Shown here piece by piece: positions 687 through 38,211 of a DNA stretch of 64,000 nt. The DNA comes from Verrucomicrobiia bacterium. GTDB taxonomy: Bacteria; Verrucomicrobiota; Verrucomicrobiia; Opitutales; Cerasicoccaceae. The notes beneath the pieces are model-generated. The model searched no databases. It was not told the DNA's origin and saw nothing but the letters and a program-made list of their open reading frames with translations. Position numbers and translations under genes: made by a program. Location: the NCBI GenBank assembly GCA_030432235.1, contig JAUIHT010000007.1, positions 124,001 to 188,000 of the forward strand. The letters are read 5' to 3'. The stretch's first letter is position 1; the number at the start of each line of letters is the position of its first letter.

Positions 687-723
687 GACAATCAGGCGGC
701 CTCCGGCGGAAAGTACCGGCGGC

Positions 724-1542: not shown

Positions 1543-1580
1543 GACAGTTGCGTAATGTTGTTAGTGAGCGGTACCCCGCG

Positions 1581-3206: not shown

Positions 3207-3357
3207 ATCAGGATAGTATTGGCTGACAAAAGTCGGCCCATTAGCAAAGATTTGCTCACGCTCAAGGCAAGCTGTTTCCGCGCCAATCGCCGCAAAGACG
3301 ACTCAGGGGTAAATCCCACTTGCCAGTCTGAGCCTCATGTGTTCACCTCGCCGCCTT

Positions 3358-4581: not shown

Positions 4582-4583
4582 CC

Positions 4584-5579
4584 ATGTCCGTACTTCGCGT
4601 CGCGCAATTCGGTCTCGGCCCCATCGGGCAGGCTTGTGTGCGTCTGCTGGCCCAAAAGCCATGGGTGGAAATCGCCGGCGGGGTGGACATCCTGCCGGAG
4701 CTTCACGGGCAGCCTCTGGGCCCGCATTGCGGCATAGACCTGCCCCCGGAAGTCAAAATCTACCCGAGCATCGAAGCCCTCGTCGACGAGCAAGTCGTGG
4801 ACGCCGTGCTCCACACCGCAGGCTCCCGGGCCGCCGTCAGCCTTCAGCAAATGGCCCCCATGATCGAGCGCGGGCTGACCGTCGTCTCCTCCTGCGAAGA
4901 GCTGCTCTTTCCCCGGCATCGCGCCCCCCATGAAACCACTGAAGCGGATGCCCGCTGCCGCGAAACCGGCGCCAAGGTGCTCGGAACGGGCGTCAACCCC
5001 GGTTACGTCCTCGATGTGCTGCCGCTGGTGCTGACCGGCGTCTGCCACCACGTGCGCGGCATTCACGCTGAGCGCGTCAGTGACGCCGCCCTGCGTCGCG
5101 AGCCCCTGCAACGCAAAGTCGGCAGTGGCCTCGAACCCGCCGAATACCTGCGACTCTGGGAAGAGGGAAAAACCGGCCACGCGGGCTTCCAGGAGTCGCT
5201 CCTGCTCATCGCGCACACCCTCGGCTGGCAGGTCGGCGAAATCACCGAGACCCTCGAGCCGGTCATCGCCGAGAAAGCCATCACTACTGAGTTTTTCCAA
5301 GTGGAGCCCGGCCAGGTGCGCGGCCTGCATCAGATTTGCCGGGCTGAGACTGTCGACGGACGCACCATCCATTTGGACCTGGAAATGTCGCTCGAGACTC
5401 ACGACCCGCATGACCTCGTCCGCATCGACGGCGACCCGCCCATCGAGGCACGGCTCAACGGCGGTGTCGCAGGAGACAGCGCCACCATCGCCGCATTGGT
5501 CAACGCCCTGCCCCGCCTGCACCGCGCCAAGCCGGGCGTACGCCTCATGACCGAGCTCGCCCCACCCCACTGGTTGTGA
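4584..5579 (+). CDS. NAD(P)-binding reductase of the dihydrodipicolinate reductase / 2,4-diaminopentanoate dehydrogenase type
   Basis: A 331-residue protein with an N-terminal Rossmann fold (RVAQFGLGPIGQACVRLL) and GVDILPELHGQPLG, the pattern seen in dihydrodipicolinate-reductase-like enzymes including 2,4-diaminopentanoate dehydrogenase. Further family-like features are DAVLHTAGSRAA, VVSSCEELLFP and TGVNPGYVLDVLPL, followed by an all-beta C-terminal domain with GLHQICRAE. The substrate cannot be read from the sequence. A role in lysine biosynthesis is unlikely because the fold matches the catabolic or unknown branch better than true DapB. It begins 2 nt after the DUF1015 stop, so the two genes probably form an operon. 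Confidence 0.78.
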   Translation: MSVLRVAQFGLGPIGQACVRLLAQKPWVEIAGGVDILPELHGQPLGPHCGIDLPPEVKIYPSIEALVDEQVVDAVLHTAGSRAAVSLQQMAPMIERGLTVVSSCEELLFPRHRAPHETTEADARCRETGAKVLGTGVNPGYVLDVLPLVLTGVCHHVRGIHAERVSDAALRREPLQRKVGSGLEPAEYLRLWEEGKTGHAGFQESLLLIAHTLGWQVGEITETLEPVIAEKAITTEFFQVEPGQVRGLHQICRAETVDGRTIHLDLEMSLETHDPHDLVRIDGDPPIEARLNGGVAGDSATIAALVNALPRLHRAKPGVRLMTELAPPHWL

Positions 5580-5615
5580 TTTGGGAGCTACGCGCCCCCA
5601 AACCCCGCGGTGCGG

Positions 5616-5888
5616 TCACGCACCTTTCCGCACTTTGTCTTTCTTGTCTTCGCGTTCTTCCTGCAGGCGTTCGCGCTCGAGCCGGAGCTGCTGCTGAATC
5701 TGCTCGGCCTCTTCGCCCTGAGCGGATACGAGCTTGCCCTTGAGGAAGACCTCACGCTCGGCAATTTTGGCTTCGTAGACCTTGTCGATTTCAGCGAGCT
5801 GCGCGCGCTGCTCATCGGTCAGGGGCTTGACGGCGGAAGGGTCGTCCTTTTCCAGCCGTTCCATGGCAAGTTCGTAGGCACTTTTCAT
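5616..5888 (-). CDS. small charged coiled-coil protein of unknown function
   Basis: A 90-residue protein made almost entirely of charged residues, starting MKSAYELAMERLEKDD and continuing with a PLTDEQRAQLAEIDKVYEAK segment and a long helix rich in Glu, Gln, Arg and Lys that ends in a basic tail (EEREDKKDKVRKGA). The heptad-like spacing of Leu, Ile and Ala suggests a coiled coil. I recognise similar small proteins as conserved hypotheticals in Verrucomicrobia but cannot assign a function. The start is the ATG at 5888; a longer in-frame extension reads back through comEC in another frame and is spurious. It lies 11 bp downstream of comEC on the same strand. Confidence 0.75.
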   Translation of the reverse strand: MKSAYELAMERLEKDDPSAVKPLTDEQRAQLAEIDKVYEAKIAEREVFLKGKLVSAQGEEAEQIQQQLRLERERLQEEREDKKDKVRKGA

Positions 5889-5899
5889 AAGCGGATGGG

Positions 5900-7582
5900 T
5901 TACACCAGCCGTAGCCCCAGTACAAGCATTACCGCGAGGATGGCCGGCGGAGTCCACAAATACCCGGCGCGCTGCGTCGGCAGATGAAGAACAATCAGGT
6001 AGCCTAGAAACATCAGGCAAAGCGTGATGGGTGCCAGCGGCAGGTAACGCCACTCCGCCGCGTGAAAGAGACCCGGCGCAAGCAAACCGGCAGCCACGAT
6101 TTTGTCGAGCAGCCAGTTCAGCACCCAGCAAAGGTGGTTGATCAACAACGATACCGGCCAGGCCCCCACCAGCCCGAAGACCGCGGATACCCCCGCCGTC
6201 ACCAGGGCCACCGAAGCCAACGGCAGTAGGATGGTGTTCAGCAGCACTGCTCCGGGGGTGAAGACGCCGAAGATGGCAATGGTCAGCGGCGTGCTGAACA
6301 GCGTGGCGGCAAAGGAAACCCCGGCCGCCAGCAGGAACCAGCGCCAGGCCTTTGCCCAGGTCCGCTGCCGCAGGCTCCAGGAGTCCTCCGGCAGGAAACG
6401 GTAGGGACGAAAGCGTTCGGCCAGAAATTGCGACAGCGGCAGGCCGTACAGCAGGATGCCGCCCACCACCGCATAGGAGAGTTGGAAGCCGGGTCGCAAC
6501 AACTCCTGCGGACTCCACAGCAGCACGCCAATTGCCGAGAACAGCAAAGCGGACATCGCCGAGGGTTTTCGCTGAAAGCCAACCGCCAGCCAGAAGATGC
6601 CCACCATGAGCAGGGCGCGCAGAGCCGAAGGCGGATGCCCGACTACCATGACGTAGGCTGTTACCAAGGCCAAGCCCAGCACCGCACCGATGGGCCGGGG
6701 CAGCCGAAGCAGATCGAAAATCAAAAAAATGGCTCCTGCGATGATGCCGATATGCAGGCCACTGACGGCAAACAGGTGCATGGTGCCGCTCTCGATAAAT
6801 CGCTCCTTTTGGCTGCGGCCCAGCGCTTCCTTGCGCCCCAACAGCATGGCCTCGCTGATGCCCGCCAGGGAGCGCTCGTTCTCCGTTTCGGCCCCGAGGC
6901 GCAGGCTGTCGCGGATGCGCAGGTTGAGCGCGCGGGCAATCAATTCGTACTCCGGCGCGGGTCGCTCAAGGGCTCGGGTAGAGCCCGAGTCGAACCGGTA
7001 ATAAACGCCGCTGCGTATCAGGAAGGCGTTGAACCCGTAGTCATTGCCATCGTCTTCCAGCACACCCAAACGCCCGCGAACCCGTACGCGCGCTCCGGGA
7101 GCGTAGTCATCCACGAACTGCTCCGGCCAGACGACAAAAAAGGCCCGCTGACCACCCAAAGCAGGCAGCAACTTGGGCGGGCCTTCGATGGTTGCCAACC
7201 CGCTCAATTGGCCGTTTTGGCGCACGTCGGCAAAGAGGCGGTCAATGCGCATGGAAAATTCAGCCTCGCGTGGCGGCAGTTGAAACCCGGTCGGCGGCTG
7301 CGGCTCGCGCATCAACCAGTAGGCCCATGCCAGCAAAATCACCCCGCCGATAAACAGCCCGCCCCAGAGGCCGTATTTTAACGGCCCGCTCCCACGCGAC
7401 AGCCACAGCGCCACCATCACCAGAACCAGCCCAGGCACAATCAACCACAAAGGCGAACCTTGCCACGGCATCCCCGCGCCGAGGACATAGCCCAGCACAA
7501 TCGGCAGCAGCAGCCATAGCAGCGGCCAGTGCCCGAGACGTCCCAACCCCGCCCGGGCATCGACAGTAGCATCCAAGGACAT
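5900..7582 (-). CDS. comEC: ComEC/Rec2 family DNA-uptake channel protein, short form
   Basis: ComEC forms the inner-membrane channel through which single-stranded DNA enters during natural transformation. The 560-residue protein has N-terminal membrane segments, a DUF4131-like soluble region with an OB-like stretch (APGARVRVRGRLGVLEDDGNDYGFNAFLIRSG, quoted here only as the family pattern at about residues 165-195), and the competence domain with the hallmark MHLFAVSGLHIGIIAG, then GHPPSALRALLMVG and about eight membrane segments. It stops after the membrane domain and lacks the C-terminal metallo-beta-lactamase-like domain found in longer ComEC proteins, as in other short forms. Family is certain; the natural competence of the organism is inferred. 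Confidence 0.92.
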   Translation of the reverse strand: MSLDATVDARAGLGRLGHWPLLWLLLPIVLGYVLGAGMPWQGSPLWLIVPGLVLVMVALWLSRGSGPLKYGLWGGLFIGGVILLAWAYWLMREPQPPTGFQLPPREAEFSMRIDRLFADVRQNGQLSGLATIEGPPKLLPALGGQRAFFVVWPEQFVDDYAPGARVRVRGRLGVLEDDGNDYGFNAFLIRSGVYYRFDSGSTRALERPAPEYELIARALNLRIRDSLRLGAETENERSLAGISEAMLLGRKEALGRSQKERFIESGTMHLFAVSGLHIGIIAGAIFLIFDLLRLPRPIGAVLGLALVTAYVMVVGHPPSALRALLMVGIFWLAVGFQRKPSAMSALLFSAIGVLLWSPQELLRPGFQLSYAVVGGILLYGLPLSQFLAERFRPYRFLPEDSWSLRQRTWAKAWRWFLLAAGVSFAATLFSTPLTIAIFGVFTPGAVLLNTILLPLASVALVTAGVSAVFGLVGAWPVSLLINHLCWVLNWLLDKIVAAGLLAPGLFHAAEWRYLPLAPITLCLMFLGYLIVLHLPTQRAGYLWTPPAILAVMLVLGLRLV

Positions 7583-7629
7583 CGCCTCCTGCTATTTCCC
7601 ATGACGGCACAGGAAGCAATGATTAAATA

Positions 7630-8421
7630 TTATTTCGCCGGAAAGTGTTGGATAAAATGTGTGCCGCCGATATTCAGTCCTGCGTCTATTGCTGCCTGTA
7701 AGTAAGCATGCCCGTGTGCCACTGCCTCGGGCAAGCTCTGCCCCTTGGACAGACCGGCCGCAATGGCAGCGGATAGAATGCAACCGCTACCGTGCGTGTT
7801 GATGTCGGGATTGCGCGTGCTTAAAAATCGTTGGACCTCGCCCTCGGGAGTGACCAGCACATCGACGAGCTGGTCTGTCTCCAGATGGCCGCCCTTGATC
7901 AGGAAGGCCACCCCGTAAGCAATGGACAAGGCGTGCCCTGCCTCCTCCATCGCTTCCACGCAACCGGGACGCTCCCCCAGCAGCACGGCGGTTTCGTCCA
8001 GGTTGGGCGTGACCAGTGTGGCCAGCGGCAGAAGAGTGTTTTTCAGAGTCTCGATGGCCTCCGGCTGGAGTAGGGTCGCGCCACTGGTCGCTACCATGAC
8101 CGGGTCAACCACCAGCGGGATTCTCGTTTCCCGGATGAAGTCCGCCGTCTCCCGGATGAGCGGCTCCGAAAATAGCATGCCGGTCTTGGCCGCGCCGATG
8201 CAGTAGTAAGCACGGAGCTGGTCGAGCTGGGCCCGGAGGAAGTCGGCGGGCAACTCGTGGATGGCGCTGACGCCGTCGGGGTTCTGCGCGGTCAGCGCAG
8301 CAAAAGCGGAGACGCCGTAGACGCCATTGGCCGCGAAGGCCTTCAGGTCGGCCTGTACTCCCGCCCCACCCCCGCTGTCGGAGGTGGCAATGGTCAGGGC
8401 AACCGCTTTTTCGTCTGACAT
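7630..8421 (-). CDS. thiD: hydroxymethylpyrimidine/phosphomethylpyrimidine kinase
   Basis: ThiD phosphorylates 4-amino-5-hydroxymethyl-2-methylpyrimidine twice, supplying the pyrimidine half of thiamine. The 263-residue ribokinase-fold protein shows the substrate site ALTIATSDSGGGAGVQADLK at the N-terminus, CIGAAKTGML, PLVVDPVMVATSGA, LVTPNLDETAVLL and the catalytic anion-hole motif NTHGSGCILSAAIAAGL, which contains the general-base cysteine/glycine loop typical of this family. Length is normal. No thiamine riboswitch was seen upstream. The gene is 6 nt downstream of a PEP-CTERM gene on the same strand, probably without functional linkage. Confidence 0.95.
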   Translation of the reverse strand: MSDEKAVALTIATSDSGGGAGVQADLKAFAANGVYGVSAFAALTAQNPDGVSAIHELPADFLRAQLDQLRAYYCIGAAKTGMLFSEPLIRETADFIRETRIPLVVDPVMVATSGATLLQPEAIETLKNTLLPLATLVTPNLDETAVLLGERPGCVEAMEEAGHALSIAYGVAFLIKGGHLETDQLVDVLVTPEGEVQRFLSTRNPDINTHGSGCILSAAIAAGLSKGQSLPEAVAHGHAYLQAAIDAGLNIGGTHFIQHFPAK

Positions 8422-8427
8422 GGGTAT

Positions 8428-9156
8428 TTATCCTTTGCGTGTTTGCCGCCAGCGGCGCAGCCCGGCAGCCCCAAGGGCTAACCCCGCCAGGCCCAGGACG
8501 GCTTCGGTGGGCTCCGGTACTTGTTTCGCTTTCAGGGTTTCGTTCGGCTCGGTGTTGTAAGCCCAATCGGTGAAGTAGATCGAGGCGTTGGGCAGGCCCG
8601 AGGCCTGGACGTTGACCCATCCGTAGTAAAAGTCGGCGCTTTCATCCAACCTGAAGCGGAAGCCGAGGGTGAAGTGTGCGAGGTGCGAAGTGGCAAAGGT
8701 GTTATTGGGGTAACTGCCGGCCAGAAAAATATAGGCCTGGCTTTCCAGGATGCCCGTCGTGGACTCGATGATCTTGACGGGGTTATAATAGCCCCAGGTG
8801 AAGGGAATATCGCCCGAGGGTACTGCTGCGGTGATGGTCTCGCCGGAGTTGAACCATGCAAAGCGATAACCTTCCGTGACAAAGCCGGCGCCTGTATTCT
8901 GGATACCCGTCCGCTGGATTTTGGCGTTGTTTTGCCAGAAGGTGCTCGAACGGAGAAAGACGAAATCGTCACGTCCATCCAAATCAATGTCCCAGTTGAT
9001 GGTGGTGTTGGCTGCGTTCAAAACCACCCCGGGCGCGTTTCCGTCAGGTACGATATGGCGAATAATGGCATGCAGATCCTGGCCGGAGGATGCGGCCAGA
9101 AGGCCTATCATGGCGCCGCCGGATTGATTGAGAGAAACTTTCATTGGCATTTTCAA
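8428..9156 (-). CDS. PEP-CTERM sorting domain protein, exported, unknown function
   Basis: A 242-residue protein that ends with the tripartite PEP-CTERM sorting signal: VPEPTEAVLGL, a hydrophobic helix (AGLALGAAGL) and an Arg/Lys tail (RRWRQTRKG). Such proteins are exported and processed by an exosortase. The central part is predicted to be beta-rich, with DIDLDGRDDFVFLRSS resembling an FG-GAP-like or calcium-binding repeat, and FYYGWVNVQASG, a pattern I know from verrucomicrobial PEP-CTERM proteins. The N-terminus (MKMPMKVSLNQSGGAMIGLLAASSG) is not a clear classical signal peptide. The second methionine pair is an alternative start. Function is unknown. Confidence 0.8.
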   Translation of the reverse strand: MKMPMKVSLNQSGGAMIGLLAASSGQDLHAIIRHIVPDGNAPGVVLNAANTTINWDIDLDGRDDFVFLRSSTFWQNNAKIQRTGIQNTGAGFVTEGYRFAWFNSGETITAAVPSGDIPFTWGYYNPVKIIESTTGILESQAYIFLAGSYPNNTFATSHLAHFTLGFRFRLDESADFYYGWVNVQASGLPNASIYFTDWAYNTEPNETLKAKQVPEPTEAVLGLAGLALGAAGLRRWRQTRKG

Positions 9157-27098: not shown

Positions 27099-27379
27099 AT
27101 GTATTTGGCAGACCCCTTGAAATGGAGTGCCTCGCGCGCGTCAAAATTGAAGTTTTCATTTTCGCTGCCCTCCATACAGCTTCAAGTTAACAAGCACGTG
27201 CGATTATTGATATTGCCTGAAATGCCTTTATTTATAAGGGAAAGCCGAGGGCATCAGACAGCCCAACCCGCGGCATCGGCGGCACTCAACGGGGTCGTTT
27301 GCCAATCCACTACGCCATATATAAGTGCTCCGCATCACTAATGCCGCATTGGCGTCAATGGTGCGGTTGCGAATCACTG
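27099..27379. promoter_or_regulatory. divergent intergenic region between surface protein and glycosidase genes
   Basis: Between the two operator copies I see no gene. Short open frames in it have no coding character. The region should contain the promoters of both flanking genes. TATATAAG at about 27318-27325 is a possible -10 element for the rightward gene. A G+C-rich stretch around 27260-27300 interrupts otherwise A+T-rich sequence. Confidence 0.4.
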
Positions 27380-27399
27380 TGTTCCGCAACACTTTGTTT
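27380..27399 (-). promoter_or_regulatory. operator candidate, right copy, inverted
   Basis: The exact reverse complement of the site at 27079-27098, placed 28 bp upstream of the glycoside hydrolase start at 27427. The two copies bracket the 406-bp divergent promoter region, each nearest to its own gene, an arrangement expected for repression or looping by one regulator. Confidence 0.6.
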
Positions 27400-27426
27400 T
27401 GTCGGAACGCAAATAGGCCTGACTTT

Positions 27427-28920
27427 ATGACGGCGACGAATAACGTAAAAAGCATGTTACCTTGCGCCAGATTAGTGCTTGCCCTCACCATAGCCTCCAT
27501 AACCAATAGCCATCTGTACGCTATTCAAGAGGATACTGCTTCCAGTATGATTCTCGGAGTGAATACCCATCTGCGGCATTGGAATAATGAAGACATTCCA
27601 GCGATGGTGGCAGACGCCGGTTTTACCTGGATTCGGGACGATTTCTACTGGCATGCGTTCGAAAAGGAAAAAGGCGTTTATACAATGCCTGAAGCCTACT
27701 CATTCTGGATAGACAAAGCGAATGAAGCCGGCCTGAAAGTCCTGGCCATTTTCAATGGTTCAAATCCGCTCTATGCTCCTGAGATTTACGACGCAGATGC
27801 TTATGCGCGTGCGGCGGCTGAATTCGCCAAAGCAACCAAAGGGCGTGTGCATGCCATAGAGATTCTCAACGAGCCTGCTAACTTTGGCTACACAAAGCAT
27901 TATGGAGGCACTTGGAATGGCTACCATGCGCCTACTGGCGAAGTGGACCACTGGGTGGCCGAGTATGTAGAGCTTTTGAACAAGGCAGCCAAAGCCATTA
28001 AGGACGTCAACCCCGAGGTGAAGGTGATAGGCCTTGGAAGTGTGTCCCCTGTTAATTTTCGGCAATTAAAAATGGGCATTGCTCCCGAGGTCGATGGCTT
28101 AGTCGACCACCCATACAGCTTCCGTCTGCCACCGGAAGTGATTCCCTATTCGGACAATCCCGCTATCTTAGCGCGGGATGGCATTACTGTGGCCGATGAA
28201 GAAGGTTCGTTCGCTTCTTTGATTAAAAACTATCGTGAACTCAGCCATGAGTATGATGGTCCTGGTGAAATCTGGCTGACCGAATGGGGTTGGACCACGT
28301 ATCAAGAGTCCAAAGCCGGTAAGCACATGTATGCGCCCGTGACGGAACTGACGCAGGCGAAATACACCCTCAGGCGGCTCTATGAAGCTCTTGGGACAGG
28401 TGTCTATGCTTCCTTTATTTACGATTTCATGGACGACGGCCGAAGCGCTTATAATGCAGAGGAGAATTTTGGTCTATTAACGGTAGACGGCGAGCCGAAG
28501 CCCGTGTTGGAAGCAATCAGGCTCTATGTTGATATTTCCAAGCAACTGCACCCGATCAATACGTCAGACAACGAAAAGGTTCGCATCATTCCTGCGGTAA
28601 ATCGCCCGGACCAACACCCAATCAAGTGGGATGACGCCAAACTCGAAGCACTGAATGCAGTGGTCTGCTATTCGTTTAGTACTGCCGGAGACAATACCGC
28701 GGTTGCATATTGGTCAGCAGAGCGCGTCTCTGGAGAATTGAAGCCGATGCTAGGCAAGTTCATCCTAGAAACACCGCGACAGTTGGAGTCCATATTGGCA
28801 GTGGACACACTCACGGGAGAAAGGAAGCAGCTTACTTTTTCTCAGGAAGACGGACATATCGTCGTCTCTCACCTGGAAATTCCAGACTACCCCACCGTTC
28901 TCATACTCAAATACCAATGA
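27427..28920 (+). CDS. secreted GH-A clan glycoside hydrolase (GH39/GH5-like)
   Basis: A 497-residue secreted enzyme. After a signal peptide (LPCARLVLALTIASITNSHLYA) comes a TIM barrel of clan GH-A type: GFTWIRDDFYWHAFEKEKG early, the acid/base glutamate in AIEILNEPANFG (Glu149) and the nucleophile glutamate in IWLTEWGWTT (Glu286). A C-terminal beta-sandwich domain follows. Retaining cleavage of a beta-linked glycan is expected; the closest families are GH39 and GH5, and the substrate is not deducible. The ATG at 27427 is used; 27454 is an equally possible start. The inverted operator copy sits just upstream. Confidence 0.85.
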   Translation: MTATNNVKSMLPCARLVLALTIASITNSHLYAIQEDTASSMILGVNTHLRHWNNEDIPAMVADAGFTWIRDDFYWHAFEKEKGVYTMPEAYSFWIDKANEAGLKVLAIFNGSNPLYAPEIYDADAYARAAAEFAKATKGRVHAIEILNEPANFGYTKHYGGTWNGYHAPTGEVDHWVAEYVELLNKAAKAIKDVNPEVKVIGLGSVSPVNFRQLKMGIAPEVDGLVDHPYSFRLPPEVIPYSDNPAILARDGITVADEEGSFASLIKNYRELSHEYDGPGEIWLTEWGWTTYQESKAGKHMYAPVTELTQAKYTLRRLYEALGTGVYASFIYDFMDDGRSAYNAEENFGLLTVDGEPKPVLEAIRLYVDISKQLHPINTSDNEKVRIIPAVNRPDQHPIKWDDAKLEALNAVVCYSFSTAGDNTAVAYWSAERVSGELKPMLGKFILETPRQLESILAVDTLTGERKQLTFSQEDGHIVVSHLEIPDYPTVLILKYQ

Positions 28921-29029
28921 ACCGACCAGACGCCTCGTGGGCATGTACATATTCCACGATTTAGGCCTGTCGCACTACCCTATCTTACGAAACAAAACAA
29001 GCTGCGCTTGTCACTTCCCCCCAGGTTCC

Positions 29030-29680
29030 ATGCCCCAAAACAATTACAAAACATTCCGGCCTAAGTCCGGCTTTAGTCTCATCGAATTACTGGCCACAAT
29101 TTCAGTTGTAGCCATATTGGCCACCATCCTATACGCCGTTGTGAACAGGGCGATGGCTACTGCTGCCACAACGAAAAGCGTTTCAAATATACGCCAAGTT
29201 GGCATGGCTATGCTAACCTATGCCAGTGACAACGACAATACGCTGCCAAACAAAATGCAGCCGGGTAAGCCATCAGTCGTATCTTTTCAGTTGTTCGATC
29301 CTTATTTGCACCACGATGATCCCGCCTGGATATGCCCTATCATTGCGGACTTAAACCAAGGCGGGGTTTCCCAAAGCGATCAGGGTCGATATACGTATTT
29401 TTGGCGCCTGACAAACTCGAATGACGGATGGCGTGATGGACTGAGCGCGATCTCTATCTACAATGTTGTAAATCCGTCCGAGGCTATGGTGTGTGCGAAC
29501 TTGACCACTGGTTCTCGTGGAGGCTACTGGGACGGCTATGCCAATGTTGCTTTTGTTGACGGCTCCGTGCGCCGTGTACCGGACGGCACTTACAATGGCG
29601 GCAATGTCTACAGCATCGATGGTGTAACTAAAAACTATATCCTGCTCCAAGGCGGAAAGCTTCGAGGATACGATTTTTAA
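29030..29680 (+). CDS. type II secretion pseudopilin-like protein with H-x9-DG-like end
   Basis: A 216-residue protein beginning with a prepilin leader: KSGFSLIELLATISVVAILATIL, with the peptidase cleavage Gly-Phe and the conserved Glu at position 5 of the mature form, at about residues 12-34. The following long helix leads to a globular domain with NIRQVGMAMLTYASDNDN and the late GYANVAFVDGSVRRVPDG, the pattern that marks the pseudopilin-like DUF1559/verrucomicrobial group. Such genes are numerous in Planctomycetes and Verrucomicrobia and often sit among carbohydrate genes. The ATG at 29030 is chosen because the leader begins soon after; an upstream ATG at 28937 adds an unlikely extension. 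Confidence 0.86.
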   Translation: MPQNNYKTFRPKSGFSLIELLATISVVAILATILYAVVNRAMATAATTKSVSNIRQVGMAMLTYASDNDNTLPNKMQPGKPSVVSFQLFDPYLHHDDPAWICPIIADLNQGGVSQSDQGRYTYFWRLTNSNDGWRDGLSAISIYNVVNPSEAMVCANLTTGSRGGYWDGYANVAFVDGSVRRVPDGTYNGGNVYSIDGVTKNYILLQGGKLRGYDF

Positions 29681-29724
29681 AAGTATCAATGCCGGCAAAC
29701 ACCGAACCCCGAAAGCGCTAATTA

Positions 29725-30804
29725 ATGGACGCCATTCCCTATGCTCAAGATGCCCATGCGGCTGAGATACTGACTGAATTTTCGGAAGGCTACTACTTGA
29801 CCTATCCGCATTCCAATGGTTTCTGGGACTCCGGGCGCAGGATGATCGTCGGGCAGAAGCTCGAGACCATAATTGCGCTATGGGAGATGGATCTGTCGGG
29901 CGGTTCACGTCGCAAAGTCGTGGTAAAGCCGTATGAGCCCGATGACCCGGTTGTTCTCTGGTTCGATGTTGCGTTGGAGGCAGGCATATTGGTGCATTTT
30001 GCGGACGGCGCTGTTCAGACCGTGGATTTGCATGGGGCAGATGGCTCGACGATGCTTTCCCGTGGTGCCAGCACAGCAAGCATGGAGCTGGTAATGGTCT
30101 CGATAACACCGGATGCAAATCAGGTATTGTTTTCATGCGGTAAGCCCGAGCAACGGGAAGCATGGCTGATCGATACCCTTTCCGGAGAAGCTAGCCAAAT
30201 ACTCTCGAAGTCTTGGTGCGCAAACCACTTTCACTTTTCTCCGTTCAATGCAGAGTGGATCGGGTTCTGCCACGAGGGGCCTACCGAAACGATTCCGGAT
30301 CGTGTTTGGGCATGGCATGCGCACAAAGCACCGCAAGGGCGCAGACTCTTTGACAACGGTGCCCGAGGGCTTTGCGTTGGCCATGAACGCTGGGCTTTTC
30401 ATAATGAATCTGTCATTGCCGTTGCCTATGGGCTGAGCCCGAGCGGTCCGCGTGGCCTCTATCAGCTATTTACCGATGGTACGGAAGCCAAGTTACTCAG
30501 TGAGGGGCAGAGAGATTGGCATGTGGACATCAGCAGAGATGGCCGCTGGGCCGTCGTAGATACGACAGGGCCCTTCGATGCACCTGGACGAGGCTGGGAG
30601 GGAGCGAATGGCGTCAGCGATATTATTTTGATTGATGTCACCACCGGCGTTCGAACCCCGCTGGCCCGAACTCACTATCATGCTTCACACCCCTGTCACC
30701 CGCACCCTATTTTCACACCTGATGGGCGCTGGATACTCTTTAACGACTCGCATGCGGATGGCCGGACTCGTATCGCGAAAATCCCAAACCCATGCCTGAT
30801 TTAA
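29725..30804 (+). CDS. oligogalacturonate-lyase-like seven-bladed propeller (PL22-like)
   Basis: A 359-residue protein without signal peptide, read as a beta-propeller. It shows ANHFHFSPFNAEWIGFCHEGP and HASHPCHPHPIFTPDGRWILFND, the histidine-rich positions that in oligogalacturonate lyase (PL22) hold the metal ion. Intermediate blades repeat the DISRDGRWAVVDTTG type. The PL22 enzyme acts in the cytoplasm on unsaturated oligogalacturonides, but divergent verrucomicrobial members may act on other uronic acid oligosaccharides. It follows the pseudopilin by 44 bp, on the same strand as the glycosidase, and probably degrades products of the secreted enzymes. Confidence 0.75.
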   Translation: MDAIPYAQDAHAAEILTEFSEGYYLTYPHSNGFWDSGRRMIVGQKLETIIALWEMDLSGGSRRKVVVKPYEPDDPVVLWFDVALEAGILVHFADGAVQTVDLHGADGSTMLSRGASTASMELVMVSITPDANQVLFSCGKPEQREAWLIDTLSGEASQILSKSWCANHFHFSPFNAEWIGFCHEGPTETIPDRVWAWHAHKAPQGRRLFDNGARGLCVGHERWAFHNESVIAVAYGLSPSGPRGLYQLFTDGTEAKLLSEGQRDWHVDISRDGRWAVVDTTGPFDAPGRGWEGANGVSDIILIDVTTGVRTPLARTHYHASHPCHPHPIFTPDGRWILFNDSHADGRTRIAKIPNPCLI

Positions 30805-31023
30805 TAACTTTGAGTAGTGCATAGCAGCCGTGGACCAAACCACCTGAGTCTGCTTGGCACTCTCTCTGCCATTCTGTTTTCAACAGTCGTCGACCCGTGC
30901 GCCATTGTTAGCGCCTCGTCGGGACAGCCAGGATAAACCACTCTGGTGGATATCCGAACAAACACCCCTGCCAGTCTTGTATTTCACGTTTCCTTCACCA
31001 CAACCCCAACCAACCCCTACCCC

Positions 31024-34000
31024 ATGAATATGACACGACTCCTGACACTTGTATGGTTACTCGGAATAACTCCCTGGCTGATTGGCCGCACTGAGCCTGA
31101 TTTGGTTCTATCCGATGATCTGGAGGGCGCGGCCCTGAACGCGCCGCCGTCCCAGTGGACAACTTCAGACAACTGGCAAGTGAAGGAGATCGGGGGCAAT
31201 CGCCTGGTCGGCAACTATAACTCGAGTGCGGGAGCCGGGCGGACGCTTACCCACCAGCTCGACCAACCGATCACCGATGCCTGCGAGCTCGATTTGGACT
31301 TCGACTGGGAATGGGGCGGCTCCAGCTCTCAGGGCTATGGCTTCTACACCATGAGCTTTGAAATCGACCTCGTCGATGACACCGGTAACGGTTATCGACT
31401 TCGGGTACGCCAGGGAACTCATAGTGCCGCCCCAAGCGCTAACGACAACAAGGTCGTCGAAATCCTCAAGTTGACCGCGGGCAGTCCCACCGTGCTGGCG
31501 CAAGGCCCCGGCTACAACGAGAGTGGCTGGAAAACCGCCGGGCTGAGTGCACCGGCTTTCAAGCCGGTACGACTCTTCTGGGAAAAGACCAGCGGCAAGC
31601 TCCTGGCCTATGTCGACGGCGATGGCGACGGCAGCCTCGAACTCTCAACCAGTGTGAGCGACACGACCTTCTCTTACTTCACGAAGATCATTGTCGCAGC
31701 ACGCGGTTACACCAGCAATGAAGTACCCCAGTTAGACAACCTGAAGGTCCGTTCCTTCCTCTTGCGCGAAGATTTTGAGGGGGCACCTTTGGACGTTGCC
31801 CCCAGCCAATGGACCACCTCAGATAATTGGCAAGTCAAGAGCTATGGTGGAAACAAGGTCGCCTGTAACTTTGATTCCAGCAGCGGCAGTGGACGTCCGA
31901 TCTTCCGCCAGCTCGCCGCAGAGGTCACCGATGCCTGGTCAGTCGATTTTGAATACGATTGGCAATGGGGAGGGTCCAATTCGAGCACTCCACCGTTTGG
32001 CTTCTATGCCTTAGCCATTGACATTGCTCTGACTGACAACGCGGGCAATGGCTACATGGTGCGTGTAAACCAGGGAACCCATAGCAGCACGCCCAACGCT
32101 AATGACGACCGAGTGTTGCAAATTTTCAAGATGACTACCGGCACCCCTTCACTCCTGGCCGAGGGACAAGGATACAATGTACCGGGATGGAAGACCCGCG
32201 GCCTCAGCGAGCCGACGTTAATGCCGGTGCGTTTTAGTTGGGACAAATCCACCGGCCAACTTCGTGTCTATGCAAACCCAGATGGAATCGGCGATCTAGA
32301 TTATAGCGTAGGTGTGATTGACACGACCTTCACATCCTTCACCCGATTGACGATGAGCACATCCGGTTTCACCAGCAATGAGAGACCCACGGTAGACAAT
32401 TTGGTTGTCACATCACCACGCAAGCGCATCTGGGGAATGTGCGGGCATCCCTCTTGGCCTGAGTACACGGCGATTGGTCAACAGGCCCAGATCGACCTGA
32501 TCAAATCGTTGGGATGCAGCTATTACCGGGTGGATACCTGGAATGAGTCCATTATTGATTCCTTACTGCCTATAGCCCAAGCCAATGGGGTTGAGCTTTT
32601 GCCCATTGTTTATAGGGGATTGGATATTTTCGCGACTCAGGCTGACGGCGTCACACCTGTCTATAGCCTCACGGATATCTACAACAGCTGTTATCAGAGT
32701 GGCTTGGCCTTTGGCCAGAAGTACAATGGTGTCTTTGACTATGTAGAAGTTGATAATGAGATGGTTCTACGGTGCATAGTCCCAGGTACCCACGGTAACC
32801 TCACCTCCCATTATGACGACAGCCTTCCCATGCAACGTTTCTCGCGTTGTCTCCAGGCGATCAAGGGACTCTCGGATGGACTGCGAGCCGGCGATCCCGA
32901 AGCAAAACAACTTGTGGGAGCTGCAGGATGGTACCACTACGGATTTCTGGATCGGCTAATCGCCGAAGGAGTCACTTTCGATGTACTTTCATGGCACTGG
33001 TACAGCAACATGGGCTCTTTGAGTCGAGTGATGCACAAGCTCACGTCTTACGGCGTGCCGATATGGATCACGGAAACGAACCGTAAGCATGGAAGCCTCT
33101 ACGGCGAATACCTCATCAATGATCTGGAGGGCGAGACCCTGAACGCGCCGCCGTCCCAGTGGACAACCTCAGACAACTGGCAAGTGAAGGAGATCGGGGG
33201 TAATCGCCTGGTCGGCAACTATAACTCGAGTGCGGGAGCCGGGCGAACGCTTACCCACCAGCTCGACCAACCGATTACCGATGCCTGCGAGGTCGATTTG
33301 GACTTCGACTGGGAATGGGGTGGCTCCAGCTCTCAGGGCTATGGCTTCTACACCATGAGCTTCGAAATCGACCTCGTCGATGACACCGGCAACGGTTATC
33401 GACTTCGGGTACGCCAGGGAACCCATAGTGCCGCCCCAAGCACCAACGACAACAAGGTCGTCGAAATCCTTAAGTTGACCGCGGGCAGTCCCACCGTGCT
33501 GGCACAAGGCCCCGGCTACAACGAGAGTGGCTGGAAAACCGCCGGGCTGAGTGCTCCGGATTTCAAGCCGGTACGACTCTTCTGGGAAAAGACCAGCGGC
33601 AAGCTCCTGGCCTATGTCGACGGCGATGGCGACGGCAGCCTCGAACTCTCAACCAGTGTGAGCGACACGACCTTCTCTTACTTCACGAAGATCATTGTCG
33701 CAGCACGCGGTTACACCAGCAATGAAGTACCCCAGTTAGACAACCTCAAGGTGTATACCGGTCAAGCAGGCCAAGAGGACCAGGCAAGCCAACTAGCCAT
33801 TGACCTTAATGAAATGGCAGGCTTTCCCGCCATTGAGGCTGTCTTCGTTTACGAGCTGCTGGACGAGTCCCGCTATGGCTATGATAAATCCGAGGCCAAC
33901 TATGGACTCTATACCATCGCTCCACATACTTCGGGGTCCGGTTGGCAATTGGGCACAGGCAAGCTGGCTGCTCAAGTAGTGGCCGACACGATTGCTGCGG

Positions 34001-34473
34001 TGGGCCCTCATCAAACTGGTGATGCCGATCTCGTCATCGACGATACCTATCAGGGCCCCGCCATCGTGACGTCTCTTCCTGATGTCTGGCAGGCGGAGGA
34101 TAGCGGAGCGGGTTACCTGGGCGGCTATCTTCATGACAACAACACGAACAAAGGTAATACCGTGCGCTTCTACCCCTTCGTCCCGGTGAGTGGTGACTAC
34201 ACAGTGGCCGTGCGCTGGCCCGCCTCTACTTCCCATGCCAGCAACGTGCCGGTCACCGTCCGGGATGCGACGGGGACTCACACCTTGACGATCAATGAGC
34301 AAAGCCAGGGGGAAACATGGACTCCTGTGGGTGTCTACGCCTTCGAAGCCACCGATGCAGGCGGCGCATCCCCCCAAGGCATCAGCTCAACCGCCCCCTA
34401 TGTCGAAATCGGCAACACTGGCACAGCGCAACGAGTCGCAGTCGACGCTGTCAAATTAGTGCCCGAATTCTAA
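31024..34473 (+). CDS. secreted multi-modular GH-A clan glycoside hydrolase with a module inserted in its catalytic domain
   Basis: A 1149-residue secreted protein. Order: signal peptide (TRLLTLVWLLGITPWLIG), module R1 (about residues 31-242), related module R2 (about 249-460), the first part of a GH-A barrel (from RIWGMCGHPSW) with the acid/base Glu579 in VEVDNEMV and nucleophile Glu684 in IWITETNRK, then module R3 (about 699-910), then the rest of the barrel (EDQASQLAIDLNEMAGFP, AVFVYELLDESRYG, EANYGLYTI), and a C-terminal golvesin/xanthan-lyase-like beta domain (VWQAEDSGAG, VAVRWPAS, VAVDAVKLVPE). R3 is 97% identical in DNA to R1. ATG at 31024 is selected for the signal peptide. Substrate unknown. 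Confidence 0.82.
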   Translation: MNMTRLLTLVWLLGITPWLIGRTEPDLVLSDDLEGAALNAPPSQWTTSDNWQVKEIGGNRLVGNYNSSAGAGRTLTHQLDQPITDACELDLDFDWEWGGSSSQGYGFYTMSFEIDLVDDTGNGYRLRVRQGTHSAAPSANDNKVVEILKLTAGSPTVLAQGPGYNESGWKTAGLSAPAFKPVRLFWEKTSGKLLAYVDGDGDGSLELSTSVSDTTFSYFTKIIVAARGYTSNEVPQLDNLKVRSFLLREDFEGAPLDVAPSQWTTSDNWQVKSYGGNKVACNFDSSSGSGRPIFRQLAAEVTDAWSVDFEYDWQWGGSNSSTPPFGFYALAIDIALTDNAGNGYMVRVNQGTHSSTPNANDDRVLQIFKMTTGTPSLLAEGQGYNVPGWKTRGLSEPTLMPVRFSWDKSTGQLRVYANPDGIGDLDYSVGVIDTTFTSFTRLTMSTSGFTSNERPTVDNLVVTSPRKRIWGMCGHPSWPEYTAIGQQAQIDLIKSLGCSYYRVDTWNESIIDSLLPIAQANGVELLPIVYRGLDIFATQADGVTPVYSLTDIYNSCYQSGLAFGQKYNGVFDYVEVDNEMVLRCIVPGTHGNLTSHYDDSLPMQRFSRCLQAIKGLSDGLRAGDPEAKQLVGAAGWYHYGFLDRLIAEGVTFDVLSWHWYSNMGSLSRVMHKLTSYGVPIWITETNRKHGSLYGEYLINDLEGETLNAPPSQWTTSDNWQVKEIGGNRLVGNYNSSAGAGRTLTHQLDQPITDACEVDLDFDWEWGGSSSQGYGFYTMSFEIDLVDDTGNGYRLRVRQGTHSAAPSTNDNKVVEILKLTAGSPTVLAQGPGYNESGWKTAGLSAPDFKPVRLFWEKTSGKLLAYVDGDGDGSLELSTSVSDTTFSYFTKIIVAARGYTSNEVPQLDNLKVYTGQAGQEDQASQLAIDLNEMAGFPAIEAVFVYELLDESRYGYDKSEANYGLYTIAPHTSGSGWQLGTGKLAAQVVADTIAAVGPHQTGDADLVIDDTYQGPAIVTSLPDVWQAEDSGAGYLGGYLHDNNTNKGNTVRFYPFVPVSGDYTVAVRWPASTSHASNVPVTVRDATGTHTLTINEQSQGETWTPVGVYAFEATDAGGASPQGISSTAPYVEIGNTGTAQRVAVDAVKLVPEF
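31115..31749 (+). repeat. module repeat R1 (direct repeat, 635 bp)
   Basis: First copy of a 635-bp in-frame segment coding for a jelly-roll-like module with LNAPPSQWTTSDNWQVKEIG and CELDLDFDWEWGGSSSQG. It aligns without gaps to 33119-33753, 2004 bp downstream, with 18 substitutions counted by eye. Most of these are silent, so the duplication is recent or kept uniform by gene conversion. Confidence 0.93.
31763..32412 (+). repeat. module repeat R2 (diverged copy)
   Basis: Protein-level relative of R1 and R3 (VAPSQWTTSDNWQVKSYG, DFEYDWQWGGSNSS, GNGYMVRVNQGTHS, SNERPTVDNLVV). The DNA has diverged much more than between R1 and R3, so this duplication is older. It lies directly before the catalytic barrel. 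Confidence 0.85.
33119..33753 (+). repeat. module repeat R3, inserted in the catalytic domain
   Basis: Second near-identical copy of the 635-bp segment at 31115-31749. Upstream sequence codes for WITETNRKHGSLYGEYLI and downstream for QAGQEDQASQLAIDLNEMA, which would be adjacent in an uninterrupted barrel. The reading frame is kept on both sides. Confidence 0.93.
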
Positions 34474-34621: not shown

Positions 34622-35596
34622 TTAAGTAAATTCATTCCATATATCATGGCCTGCCCGCAGTTCTCCATCCGCTTCAATGAATGACAGATTTCCTGCGCGC
34701 CCCATTGGCCCAAACTCTTCTCTGTGAGCATCTGCAATTAGGCTATGATAAAGCAAGTAACTATAATACCCAATTTTTCTTCGCACTAACTCACTGAGAG
34801 TATAGCGTATATTTTCAACTCTCTCCGCATCATCGGTGCTGCCCCAGCAGGTTTCGGTAGCCACCAGTGGTTTACCGGTCTTTTCCGAAAGGAGAACGTA
34901 TTCGTCCAGCAGGTTCACGAAGTCGCGCTTGTCATCCGGTTTGTTTCCATCAGGAATATAGTAAGGGTGTATACTTAGCAAATCACTGAATGCCTCGACC
35001 GCCGCCAAGGGTGAGTATATATGAGAGCCCACGGTAACAGGAGCTTTTGCACCCATCTTTTTGCAGCTCGTATACAGTAACTCTAGCCATGCGGCCTCTG
35101 CTTTGGCTATTTCAGGAAAATCCGTAACCGGCAGATTATACGAGAAAGGTTCGTTGCACAAATCCCAGGCAATAATCCTTGGGTCACTGGCATGAGTACC
35201 AACAATGTCCTCCAAGTAGGGCTGAAACATATTATCCTTCTGGACCCAGGACACTCCCGGCAGGAAATGGTCTATATAGATGCCTCCATAATCCAAATCC
35301 TTATCGTGCCAGCGATTGAATAAAACTGGCATCATCGACAACCCCAGTTCACTGGTAATGTGAAGCACTTCCTCAAACTTCTGCATATAAGCTTTCGGTT
35401 CGCGAATATAGGCGTCCCATGAATGCCAAAAGCGAATGCTATTCATCTTGGGAAAGTAGCTTTTTCCAATGCTCAGCTCGTGGCTAATTACCGCCGGGTC
35501 GAATCGCCCCCAAAGCTCCATGCCATTACTCCCATAGCTTGGCTGGTAGTTAAATCCACGAATAGTAGAATAGTCATATAGTGAGTCTAAGTCCAT
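34622..35596 (-). CDS. cytoplasmic GH5-like glycoside hydrolase
   Basis: A 324-residue single-domain enzyme of clan GH-A without signal peptide. The barrel shows MNSIRFWHSWDAYIREP, MMPVLFNRWHD, the acid/base motif IIAWDLCNEPFSY, LLSIHPYYIPDG, and the nucleophile strand PLVATETCWGSTDD. The end (GYYSYLLYHSLIADAHREE, FIEADGELRAGH) is typical of GH5/GH2-like enzymes that act on oligosaccharides brought into the cell. It is convergent with the modular secreted enzyme, so one may act on products of the other; this is inference. Its promoter should lie in the 200-bp A+T-rich stretch before 35801. Confidence 0.82.
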   Translation of the reverse strand: MDLDSLYDYSTIRGFNYQPSYGSNGMELWGRFDPAVISHELSIGKSYFPKMNSIRFWHSWDAYIREPKAYMQKFEEVLHITSELGLSMMPVLFNRWHDKDLDYGGIYIDHFLPGVSWVQKDNMFQPYLEDIVGTHASDPRIIAWDLCNEPFSYNLPVTDFPEIAKAEAAWLELLYTSCKKMGAKAPVTVGSHIYSPLAAVEAFSDLLSIHPYYIPDGNKPDDKRDFVNLLDEYVLLSEKTGKPLVATETCWGSTDDAERVENIRYTLSELVRRKIGYYSYLLYHSLIADAHREEFGPMGRAGNLSFIEADGELRAGHDIWNEFT

Positions 35597-35800
35597 AGCA
35601 ATTATCGTCTCTATAATTTGTTTATAACAGTTCTATATTTGACCTATTTTACCATGTCTTAATGCTCTCGGTAAAGCTATTTTATTACTCACATTAAAAT
35701 CCTCCCTAATTTCATATTTACTGACAAACTTCCGCAACTTGAATTGCCTATCAGAAGGAATTCGCTTAAGCGCACTCTAAATGTAGACACAGCTGCCTAA
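35597..35800. promoter_or_regulatory. A+T-rich upstream region of the GH5-like gene
   Basis: No gene is seen. It contains ACTTCCGCAACTT at about 35729-35741, which resembles half of the TGTTCCGCAACA operator found at 27380, and a 10-bp palindrome CGCTTAAGCG at 35763-35772. Either could be a regulatory site, but neither is convincing alone. Confidence 0.3.
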
Positions 35801-36706
35801 TTATTGTGTAAGGCTAATGATGGCATCCATGGCTGTATTGAGATGCTCCTTTAGCAATTTCTGAGCTTCGTCTTCGTGACCGGAAAGAATGGCCTCGATG
35901 ATACCGATGTGCTGCCGTACCCCCAAGCGGGCACGCTCTACAGTGAAACGCTTGCTGTGGAGCTGAAATTCGACTAAAGTGTAAATGAATGCATGTCGTT
36001 CTGCAATGATCCTGTTCCCAGACGATTCGAGTAACATCCGGTGAAAGGTCACATCCAACTCAGAAAATTTACTCATACTGAAGCCTGCTTTGGTCCCCAA
36101 GGCCTTAGTCCGCTTGAGCAGTGCCTTAAGACGTGAGCGATACCGGCCCAAGGTTTCCTCTCTCATCAAGCAACCCAAGCAATAACATTCCACAAGCTGA
36201 CGTAATTCGGTTAATTCCCGAATCTGACACTCATTGAGTTCGACGGCCTGCCATTGTCGTCTTGCCTCCTTCCGAAACAGCCCCAAGGGAACAAGGGATA
36301 GCATCGCCTCCCGTACTGGGGCAGTTGAGCAACCAAGTTCACTTGCCAATTGCCGCTCGCTGAAACGCTGCCCGGGCAATATTTTCCCTGTGCCAATCTG
36401 CTCAAGCAAATGATGTACGACCTCGCGGTCCTTTGGCAGTTCTTCAGGTATATCTTTAGGGAAATCGGTTTGCCTCACATTACGCGCTAAAACAAGGCGA
36501 CGTCCATTCTGACGGACTATTTTCTTCTTTTTCAACCAAGCGTTAGCCTCACGTACGGTGGTTCGGCTAACTGATAATTCGTGCGCAAATGCCACTTCAC
36601 CAGGAATGCACTCCCCTGGCTCTATATTCTGCAGAATACATAGTGCACCGTGCAATGTACGCTTCACAAGCGGGGTTTGTGTGCCTGGCAGTCCGTTATG
36701 GCTCAT
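35801..36706 (-). CDS. GntR/FCD transcriptional regulator with two winged-helix domains
   Basis: A 301-residue regulator. Two GntR-like winged helices occur in tandem: the first at about residues 14-75 (PGEVAFAHELSVSRTTVREANAWLKKKK) and the second at about 90-155 (PGQRFSERQLASELGCSTAPVREAMLSL), both quoted as the family pattern positions. An all-helical FCD ligand domain follows (LTELRQLVECYCLGCLM, SELDVTFHRMLLESSGNRII, HIGIIEAILSGHEDEAQKLLKEHL), with His residues expected to bind metal and an organic acid. FCD regulators usually have one HTH. It is divergent from the GlcDEF-lactonase operon, about 100 bp away, and probably controls it in response to lactate, glycolate or a sugar acid. Confidence 0.88.
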   Translation of the reverse strand: MSHNGLPGTQTPLVKRTLHGALCILQNIEPGECIPGEVAFAHELSVSRTTVREANAWLKKKKIVRQNGRRLVLARNVRQTDFPKDIPEELPKDREVVHHLLEQIGTGKILPGQRFSERQLASELGCSTAPVREAMLSLVPLGLFRKEARRQWQAVELNECQIRELTELRQLVECYCLGCLMREETLGRYRSRLKALLKRTKALGTKAGFSMSKFSELDVTFHRMLLESSGNRIIAERHAFIYTLVEFQLHSKRFTVERARLGVRQHIGIIEAILSGHEDEAQKLLKEHLNTAMDAIISLTQ

Positions 36707-36740
36707 TACTGAATGATGAAATTAAAAAAAGTGCTATAAC

Positions 36741-36770
36741 TTTAACTCCGACCTTGACCAATCTTATAAT
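36741..36770 (+). promoter_or_regulatory. candidate promoter of the GlcDEF operon
   Basis: TTTAAC at 36741-36746 and a perfect TATAAT at 36765-36770 are separated by 18 bp in an A+T-rich 101-bp divergent gap between the FCD regulator and the first operon gene. Transcription would begin about 30 nt before the ATG at 36808. No clear Shine-Dalgarno sequence precedes that ATG. An operator for the regulator is expected here but I could not identify it. Confidence 0.4.
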
Positions 36771-36807
36771 AAGCCATTTTTTGTATTTTATCGACTAAAA
36801 ACATTAA

Positions 36808-38211
36808 ATGGTTTCCCCCACCCCCAGCTACAAAAGTACCCTCCAACGCGCAATGTCCAGGGGCCAGCTATTGACACGCCCAGCCCAGCTTGTGCCCTAC
36901 GAAGCAGACGGTCTCGGCTACAAACGCTACCCGGTCGAACTAGTCGCCATCCCCGCCGATGTGGAGGAACTACAGTCCCTGCTCAAAGTACTGAAAGAAA
37001 CAAATGCACCCTTTGTCATCCGAGGAGCAGGCACCTCGCTTTCGGGGGGTCCGGTCGCGGCACAGGGGGGCATCATTATCCACCTGTCAAAGTTGCGCAA
37101 GATAGAGGAAATCAATCCCCGGGATCGGTTTGCGCTGGTACAAAGCGGCGTAGTCCTAAATGAGCTGGAGGCGGCCCTGGAGCCGCACGGGCTCTACTAC
37201 CCACCCGACCCCTCCAGCGGCTTGTCCTGTACGCTCGGCGGTAACGTCGCGACGAATGCCGGCGGCATCCATTGCTTTCGCTACGGTGTAACAGGCAACT
37301 ATATCCTGGGGTTGGAAGCCATTCTACTGGATGGCAGCATCGTACAGTTTGGCGGACCCGCCGGAGGCCGTGGTGACTGGCGTGAGGACTGGAAGCGTCT
37401 GTTCGTCGGCTCCGAGGGAACTTTGGGTGTCTTTACTCGCTTTTGGCTACGTCTCATTGCGCGCCCCGAGAAAGTCTGGACCTTCCGCGCCATGTACCCC
37501 GACATCAATAGCGCCAGCGAGGCCATTCGTCAATTGGCGCGGCATCCTTCCTATCCTGCGGCGATAGAATTCATGGATCCGCGTAGCATTGACATGGTTG
37601 AAAACAGCCCGATGTCGGTCGGCCTGCCCCGGAATGCCTATATGATCCTCACCGAGATCGACGGCCCTCCCGAGTTGGTCGATGCTCGCGTAGGGCCCAT
37701 TGCCCAGCTCCTTCGCAACTGCGGTTCGGACGATGTTTCCTACAGCGACCAAGCCAATCAACGCCAGGCCCTCTGGAAAGCACGCAAGGCGCAAGGCGGA
37801 CTGCTGGGCCAAGTAAGCCCTGATTTTGTCGTACAGGATGCAGTCATCCCCAAGTCCCGCCTGAACGAAATACTGAACTTTATCTATGAAAAAGCGGACG
37901 CGGCGGGTATCGCGGTCACGACCATCATGCATGCCGGCGATGGCAACCTGCATCCCGATTTCCTCTTCGACCAAAACAAGCCTGGTGAACTTGAGAAAGT
38001 CGAACAAATCGGAAAAGAGCTTATGAAAAAAGTTTCCGAGATAGGCGGCACCCTCTCCGGTGAGCATGGCATCGGTAATGACAAAGCAGCGTACATGGCC
38101 TCTCATTTGGGGCCACTAGGCCAAGCCATACAAATGGCCATTCCTCGCCCCTTCAATACCCGCAGTCAACTTAACCCAATGAAAGTATTTCCTGAAAGGA
38201 GGTACGCATGA
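36808..38211 (+). CDS. glcD: FAD-linked glycolate/D-lactate oxidase subunit GlcD
   Basis: A 467-residue flavoprotein of the GlcD/D-lactate dehydrogenase family that oxidises a 2-hydroxy acid to the keto acid. It shows the FAD-binding fold PFVIRGAGTSLSGGPVA, YYPPDPSSGLSCTLGGNVATNAGG and GSEGTLGVFTRF, and the C-terminal substrate domain with TIMHAGDGNLHPDFLFD and GGTLSGEHGIGNDKA. Length is normal. It overlaps the next gene by 4 bp and begins a six-gene operon. With subunits E and F it should form the membrane-associated complex that passes electrons to quinone. Confidence 0.93.
   Translation: MVSPTPSYKSTLQRAMSRGQLLTRPAQLVPYEADGLGYKRYPVELVAIPADVEELQSLLKVLKETNAPFVIRGAGTSLSGGPVAAQGGIIIHLSKLRKIEEINPRDRFALVQSGVVLNELEAALEPHGLYYPPDPSSGLSCTLGGNVATNAGGIHCFRYGVTGNYILGLEAILLDGSIVQFGGPAGGRGDWREDWKRLFVGSEGTLGVFTRFWLRLIARPEKVWTFRAMYPDINSASEAIRQLARHPSYPAAIEFMDPRSIDMVENSPMSVGLPRNAYMILTEIDGPPELVDARVGPIAQLLRNCGSDDVSYSDQANQRQALWKARKAQGGLLGQVSPDFVVQDAVIPKSRLNEILNFIYEKADAAGIAVTTIMHAGDGNLHPDFLFDQNKPGELEKVEQIGKELMKKVSEIGGTLSGEHGIGNDKAAYMASHLGPLGQAIQMAIPRPFNTRSQLNPMKVFPERRYA

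Follow-up and report, generated by a model that had tools for sequence, protein, structure and literature searches.

The window analyzed here is a stretch of 64,000 nucleotides from a Verrucomicrobiia bacterium of the Cerasicoccaceae (GenBank assembly GCA_030432235.1, contig JAUIHT010000007.1, positions 124,001 to 188,000 of the forward strand). Its plus strand carries an open frame that runs from a GTG at 30946, or from the likelier start ATG at 31024, to a stop at 34473, and that probably encodes a secreted glycosidase of an uncharacterised family of glycoside hydrolase (GH) clan GH-A. A hydrophobic, signal-like stretch, judged by eye, lies directly after the ATG. It is followed by two copies of a module that we call R (R1, 31115–31748; R2, about 31753–32412, its protein sequence 52% identical to that of R1), the first part of a (β/α)8 barrel from strand 1 to strand 7 (32416–33096; partial match to PF11790, E 3.4e-5), a third module copy, R3 (33119–33752), the rest of the barrel with helix 7, strand 8 and helix 8 (33754–34005), and a Golvesin_C domain (PF25275; 34081–34461; Pfam E 1.9e-16). 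The putative acid/base Glu605 (codon 32758) and nucleophile Glu710 (codon 33073) are numbered from the GTG, so that Glu710 corresponds to Glu684 from the ATG. No further R module was found in the same genome outside this gene.

The homology of R3 with R1 starts 15 residues past the nucleophile, and downstream of R3 the barrel continues with helix 7, strand 8 (VFVYELLDE) and the last helix; both points agree with the preliminary description of this locus. That description had called for a comparison with homologues lacking R3, and in a catalytic-domain alignment of 14 rows, with the inserts removed, both barrel parts join end to end with the insert-free relatives; the module thus splits a single barrel, parts of which lie before and after it. 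Of the alignments made, A4 was used for the model of the window barrel with R3, while A2, A3 and A5 misaligned rows around the insert. The AlphaFold model of an insert-free relative (L032, from a Prolixibacteraceae metagenome-assembled genome; mean predicted local distance difference test score, pLDDT, 79.9) is a (β/α)8 barrel with Glu115 after strand 4, strand 7 at residues 231–237 including Glu235, a low-confidence segment at 241–246 and helix 7 at 247–269. Mapped onto this model, the insertion point of the window protein falls in the strand 7–helix 7 loop, which lies on the predicted catalytic face and beside the nucleophile. The best solved-structure matches to the L032 fold are β-glucosidase barrels, many of them titled GH1 (Z 25–26 over about 290 residues, 12–17% identity). 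Membership of clan GH-A is supported by this fold and by the catalytic residues, since Glu605 (in DNEM) and Glu710 (in WITE) of the window protein align with positions that are invariant in the insert-free relatives; their putative roles are assigned by analogy.

We searched several overlapping genome sets for relatives, in which the gene is rare and patchy. Matches were found in 4 of 372 genomes of the order and 8 of 384 of the class (own genome included in both), in 4 of 150 of the family of genome G368 and, with an R profile, in 3 of 387 of the phylum (own genome included). Genus-level searches matched one genome each, already known in every case (1 of 2 genomes for G372, 1 of 15 for G368 and 1 of 1 for G328), and weak class-level matches in G473, G540 and G677 were not included in our readings. 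When the whole protein was searched against 177 relatives, 30 genomes matched, own genome included, and among the matches listed all those outside this gene lay C-terminally, around the Golvesin domain. A plasmid search and a first viral scan returned no relative. An insert-free barrel homologue is present on two 168-kb IMG/VR contigs (L095, at 2761–3909, and L096).

Barrels with an insert were found in six proteins from four genomes: that of the window, two at L066 and one at L067 (all three in G368), one at L068 (G328) and one at L088 (G372). The five relatives, from three other genomes of the order, hold at the same loop an R module that is 30–36% identical to R3. The distance from the nucleophile to the first tryptophan of the module is 29 residues in three of the six proteins and 30 in the other three, and that from the module end to the QA of helix 7 is 15, 15, 15, 17 and 17 residues in the five relatives and 15, as counted by eye, in the window protein. 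The inserts of L067 and L068, from two genera, are 82% identical to each other, and L088 belongs to a genome of two contigs, in which it sits on one of 7.3 Mb. Relatives without the insert come from several families; they are those of G310, G685 (two), G522, G650, G590, L032, G1009 (two open frames) and L095/L096, and those of Caballeronia/Burkholderia, where 20 of 23 loci carry an intact, insert-free frame of 309 amino acids (aa). The count excludes the other three, namely L053, which was not recovered, L054, which is truncated by the contig, and L055, whose frame is short. This module at the same loop in five diverged relatives, at near-equal spacing, together with the insert-free relatives in several families, indicates that the insertion is old and shared. 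The preliminary description had read R3 as a recent insertion by internal duplication, a view at odds with any homologue whose barrel has long contained the module; both L066 proteins, L067, L068 and L088 are such homologues, and recent insertion was rejected on their account, whereas the fairly recent common copy of R1 and R3 stands.

R1 and R3 are collinear and gapless at an offset of 2004 nucleotides, and differ at 18 positions in 634 bp (97.2% DNA identity), 13 of the differences being silent and 5 replacing. The preliminary description had this right to one base (97%, with 18 differences in 635 bp, mostly silent, in frame). An identity over such a length is far above chance. The rates of synonymous (dS 0.095) and non-synonymous (dN 0.0104) substitution give a dN/dS of 0.11, which indicates constraint on the module pair without telling on which copy. 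No 8-mer is common to the 200-bp flanks of R1 and R3, whether upstream or downstream. With R2 as outgroup, 8 of the 18 differing sites agree with R1, 4 with R3 and 6 with neither; the edge sites 31114 and 31749, which both agree with R1, were excluded from this count, and with them it becomes 10, 4 and 6 of 20. This polarisation somewhat favors R1 as the copy with fewer changes, the sites being too few to decide the direction of copying. When positions are compared, R1 stands out as the newcomer: none of the five relatives has two N-terminal R modules, three have a single one, to which R2 corresponds in position (the two L066 proteins and L088), and two, L067 and L068, have no R match there. 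A run of 186 bp without differences (31557–31742) at the 3' end of the tract (placement test, p 0.044) weakly suggests either a later patch or the collapse of a repeat during assembly. The near identity of R1 and R3 dates a copying event and not the insertion, and the copying is the recent part of this history. In a limited literature search, none of the matches listed dealt with a glycosidase whose inserted and terminal modules had been copied from one to the other, which is no proof of absence.

Taken together, we consider it likely that a single old insertion of R, kept since then, was followed by copying within the gene. Long ago, in one lineage of the order, an R module would have entered the strand 7–helix 7 loop of a barrel that may still fold around it. 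The embedded module would have been maintained and, at times, would have received the sequence of the gene's N-terminal R modules or passed its own to them, possibly by gene conversion, and the near identity of R1 and R3 would be the latest such exchange, in either direction. R would serve as an accessory domain for the binding of substrate or matrix, placed next to the active-site cleft.

Several observations weigh against this explanation. First, the catalytic tree is weakly resolved, with stars on 2 of 11 inner branches and flags on long rows, and the best tree needs three changes of the insert label; since a single clade of insert-bearers is not rejected (approximately unbiased test, p-AU 0.37), a single origin is allowed by this poorly resolved tree, not shown. 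Second, the R modules of the window protein do not follow position in the module tree, a pattern that independent insertions would explain likewise. Third, the tree of 17 R modules flags long branches, the two L066 inserts among them. Fourth, one insert-bearing paralogue, in the 932-aa frame of L066, lacks the acid/base motif. Finally, the AlphaFold model of the window barrel with R3 has a mean pLDDT of 50.2, is unusable from residue 223 and supports only the first seven strands; Foldseek with this model returned GH-A enzymes only, through its first part. Because the model is good only for that part, closure of the window barrel around R3 rests on the alignment.

The chief alternative is that a tolerant loop took up R independently in several lineages, that of the window included. 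In the tree of 17 modules, which did not comprise the R-like frame of L094 or the modules of L103 and L104, a clade of all inserted modules was rejected (p-AU 3.6e-65), largely owing to the R1/R3 pair. When R1 was removed, this clade was still rejected (p-AU 0.006), as was one that joined R3 to just the inserts of L067, L068 and L088 (p-AU 0.008), and R3 joined R2 of its own protein with a support of 90/92, just under the limit for starring. These results, together with the three label changes on the best catalytic tree, favor parallel insertions; the grouping of R3 with its own R2 and not with the inserts of relatives also suggests homogenisation inside the gene. On the other side stand both junction spacings, which stay within two residues across the six proteins (the second distance of the window protein counted by eye), the insert-bearer clade that the catalytic tree does not reject, the grouping of the L067 and L068 inserts with full support and, at L066, that of the two inserts with each other (85/88, unstarred, long branches flagged). 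The N-terminal modules of the L066 paralogues also group (99/98), and modules that cluster by position imply that the positions stayed separate there. On balance we regard parallel insertions as unlikely.

A recent duplication of R1 into an until then uninterrupted barrel of the window's own lineage, as originally proposed, would account for the 97.2% identity and agrees with the outgroup count in favor of R1, itself too small to decide; the five relatives that already hold a module at this loop, none with two N-terminal copies, make it very improbable, unless every one of these modules arose by a separate insertion. Least probable of all is that the third copy is a mis-joined repeat, a suspicion fed by an identical run longer than the common 150-base reads and by a draft genome of 42 contigs, yet countered by the 18 sites at which the copies differ, by the reasoning that a mis-join should swap flanks or delete rather than add an in-frame copy, and by other genomes, one of only two contigs, whose relatives show this layout with modules clearly unlike those of the window.

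Apart from its origin, the insert might have turned the enzyme into a mere binding protein, and the preliminary description had suggested that activity could be abolished or altered. The insert lies 15 residues past the nucleophile, and the 932-aa L066 paralogue (2–2797, minus strand; G368:C83), whose frame runs off the contig past the barrel, has Arg-Asp in place of Asn-Glu and AWY in place of HWY; this paralogue is, by its sequence, probably non-catalytic. In the other five of the six insert-bearing proteins, however, the Asn-Glu of the acid/base, the Thr-Glu of the nucleophile and the HWY of strand 6 are all kept. The two glutamates retained in five of six, the low dN/dS of the R1/R3 pair and the activity of published glycosidases with a carbohydrate-binding module (CBM) inserted elsewhere in the barrel (PMC9063844, PMC7848910, PMC13357471, PMC5725463) make inactivation improbable, and the window enzyme would accordingly be expected to have retained catalysis.

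As to the nature of R, the module occurs at the N-terminus, within the barrel and in pairs at the C-terminus. Such pairs are found in three proteins whose barrel is a different one (L089) and, in a more distant form, in an insert-free family member (L104). A weakly similar 257-aa frame (L094, G590) and a module standing alone in a 294-aa frame (L103), with a C-terminal tail that we take to be PEP-CTERM-like, complete the set. Such settings are those of an exchangeable accessory module of carbohydrate-active enzymes. Nine columns are invariant across 17 R modules, two of them tryptophans. No Pfam family matched more than two of the 17 modules, PDB sequence searches with R gave no convincing match (best E 0.38; none in a further search), and the AlphaFold model of R3 has a pLDDT below 50. 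R is most likely an accessory, substrate- or matrix-binding module, and its context suggests that the ligand may be a glycan. The L089 proteins are encoded by three adjacent genes (G368:C239), and the one submitted to Pfam has a CARDB domain; their first and second modules fall in separate clades, so that these pairs have not been homogenised.

Pfam, NCBIfam (on five whole or catalytic proteins) and PDB searches gave no clear name for the barrel family. The window protein matches PF11790 (Glyco_hydro_cc, GH128) with 24 bits (cut-off 21) over profile positions 97–174 of 237 only, that is, 78 positions, and a partial match of this kind was seen in 7 of 8 related proteins, 3 of those 7 under the cut-off. 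A family profile of the insert-free relatives finds GH128 chains in the PDB (6uav, E 2e-6). GH1 chains, for their part, reach equal or better scores with this profile (best E 7.5e-8), and GH1-type glucosidases lead the matches of the fold. Two of the insert-free relatives, L033 of Caballeronia (2408–8768) and L032, lie among genes that resemble, by eye, those of glycosyltransferases and chain-length regulators, surroundings that suggest an exopolysaccharide role for that branch. Among the neighbors in the window, at 27325–30801 and 34625–38208, one protein resembles GH5/GH39 enzymes (Pfam below cut-off), another has an N-terminus like that of a type IV pilin, a third resembles oligogalacturonate lyases and a fourth, encoded on the minus strand, GH5 enzymes. 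A GntR/FCD regulator and an FAD-linked oxidase complete the set, which looks like a carbohydrate-use locus.

Accessory modules inserted in GH barrels are of a known kind, described for a small number of enzymes. GH26, like the family described here, belongs to clan GH-A. In the GH5_25 endoglucanase MtGlu5, an accessory CBM29-like module likewise lies within one (β/α)8 chain of clan GH-A, but this insert (236–365) precedes the nucleophile Glu393, whereas that of the window follows it, and module and family are different; once its insert is deleted, MtGlu5 is catalytically less efficient (PMC9063844). The GH10 xylanases Pm25 and Xyn10C share with the window protein one or more modules inside a GH-A barrel, in an insertion common to their homologues; they differ by the strand 3–helix 3 loop, CBM4 modules and a polysaccharide utilization locus context in Bacteroidetes, and the CBMs of Pm25 can be excised with catalysis retained (PMC7848910). 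EngU, the first characterised GH148 and enzymatically active, is also a clan GH-A barrel split by a binding module, and other GH148 members are reported to carry different inserts at the identical position; its CBM4, however, lies in the strand 4–helix 4 loop, and that report came across no insert-less GH148 member (PMC5725463). In the mannanase BcWH2_GH26, CBM112, a previously unknown module family, is likewise intercalated in the catalytic domain, and its deletion alters no kinetic parameter significantly (PMC13357471). A "disruptive CBM" (PMC10956234) was rejected as a precedent, because that report concerns a C-terminal CBM6.

To these systems the window adds a loop position that differs from those of MtGlu5, Pm25 and EngU, whose inserts, as far as the cited reports describe them, all come before the nucleophile while that of the window lies directly behind it, and an unusual record of exchange. 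The copying between R1 and R3 implies that a domain lying inside a catalytic fold can be replaced by a terminal copy, or be the source of one, with the frame kept. Moreover, the family members that have the insert and those that lack it form a natural series in which to ask what the insert does and how the barrel accepts it. It is tempting to speculate, although we hold this as tentative and rather doubtful, that the strand 7–helix 7 loop is a long-lived exchange slot in which, lineage by lineage, the embedded module is rewritten again and again from the gene's terminal R modules, the two kinds evolving in concert; if so, binding specificity would be updated at the rim of the active site and at the terminus together.

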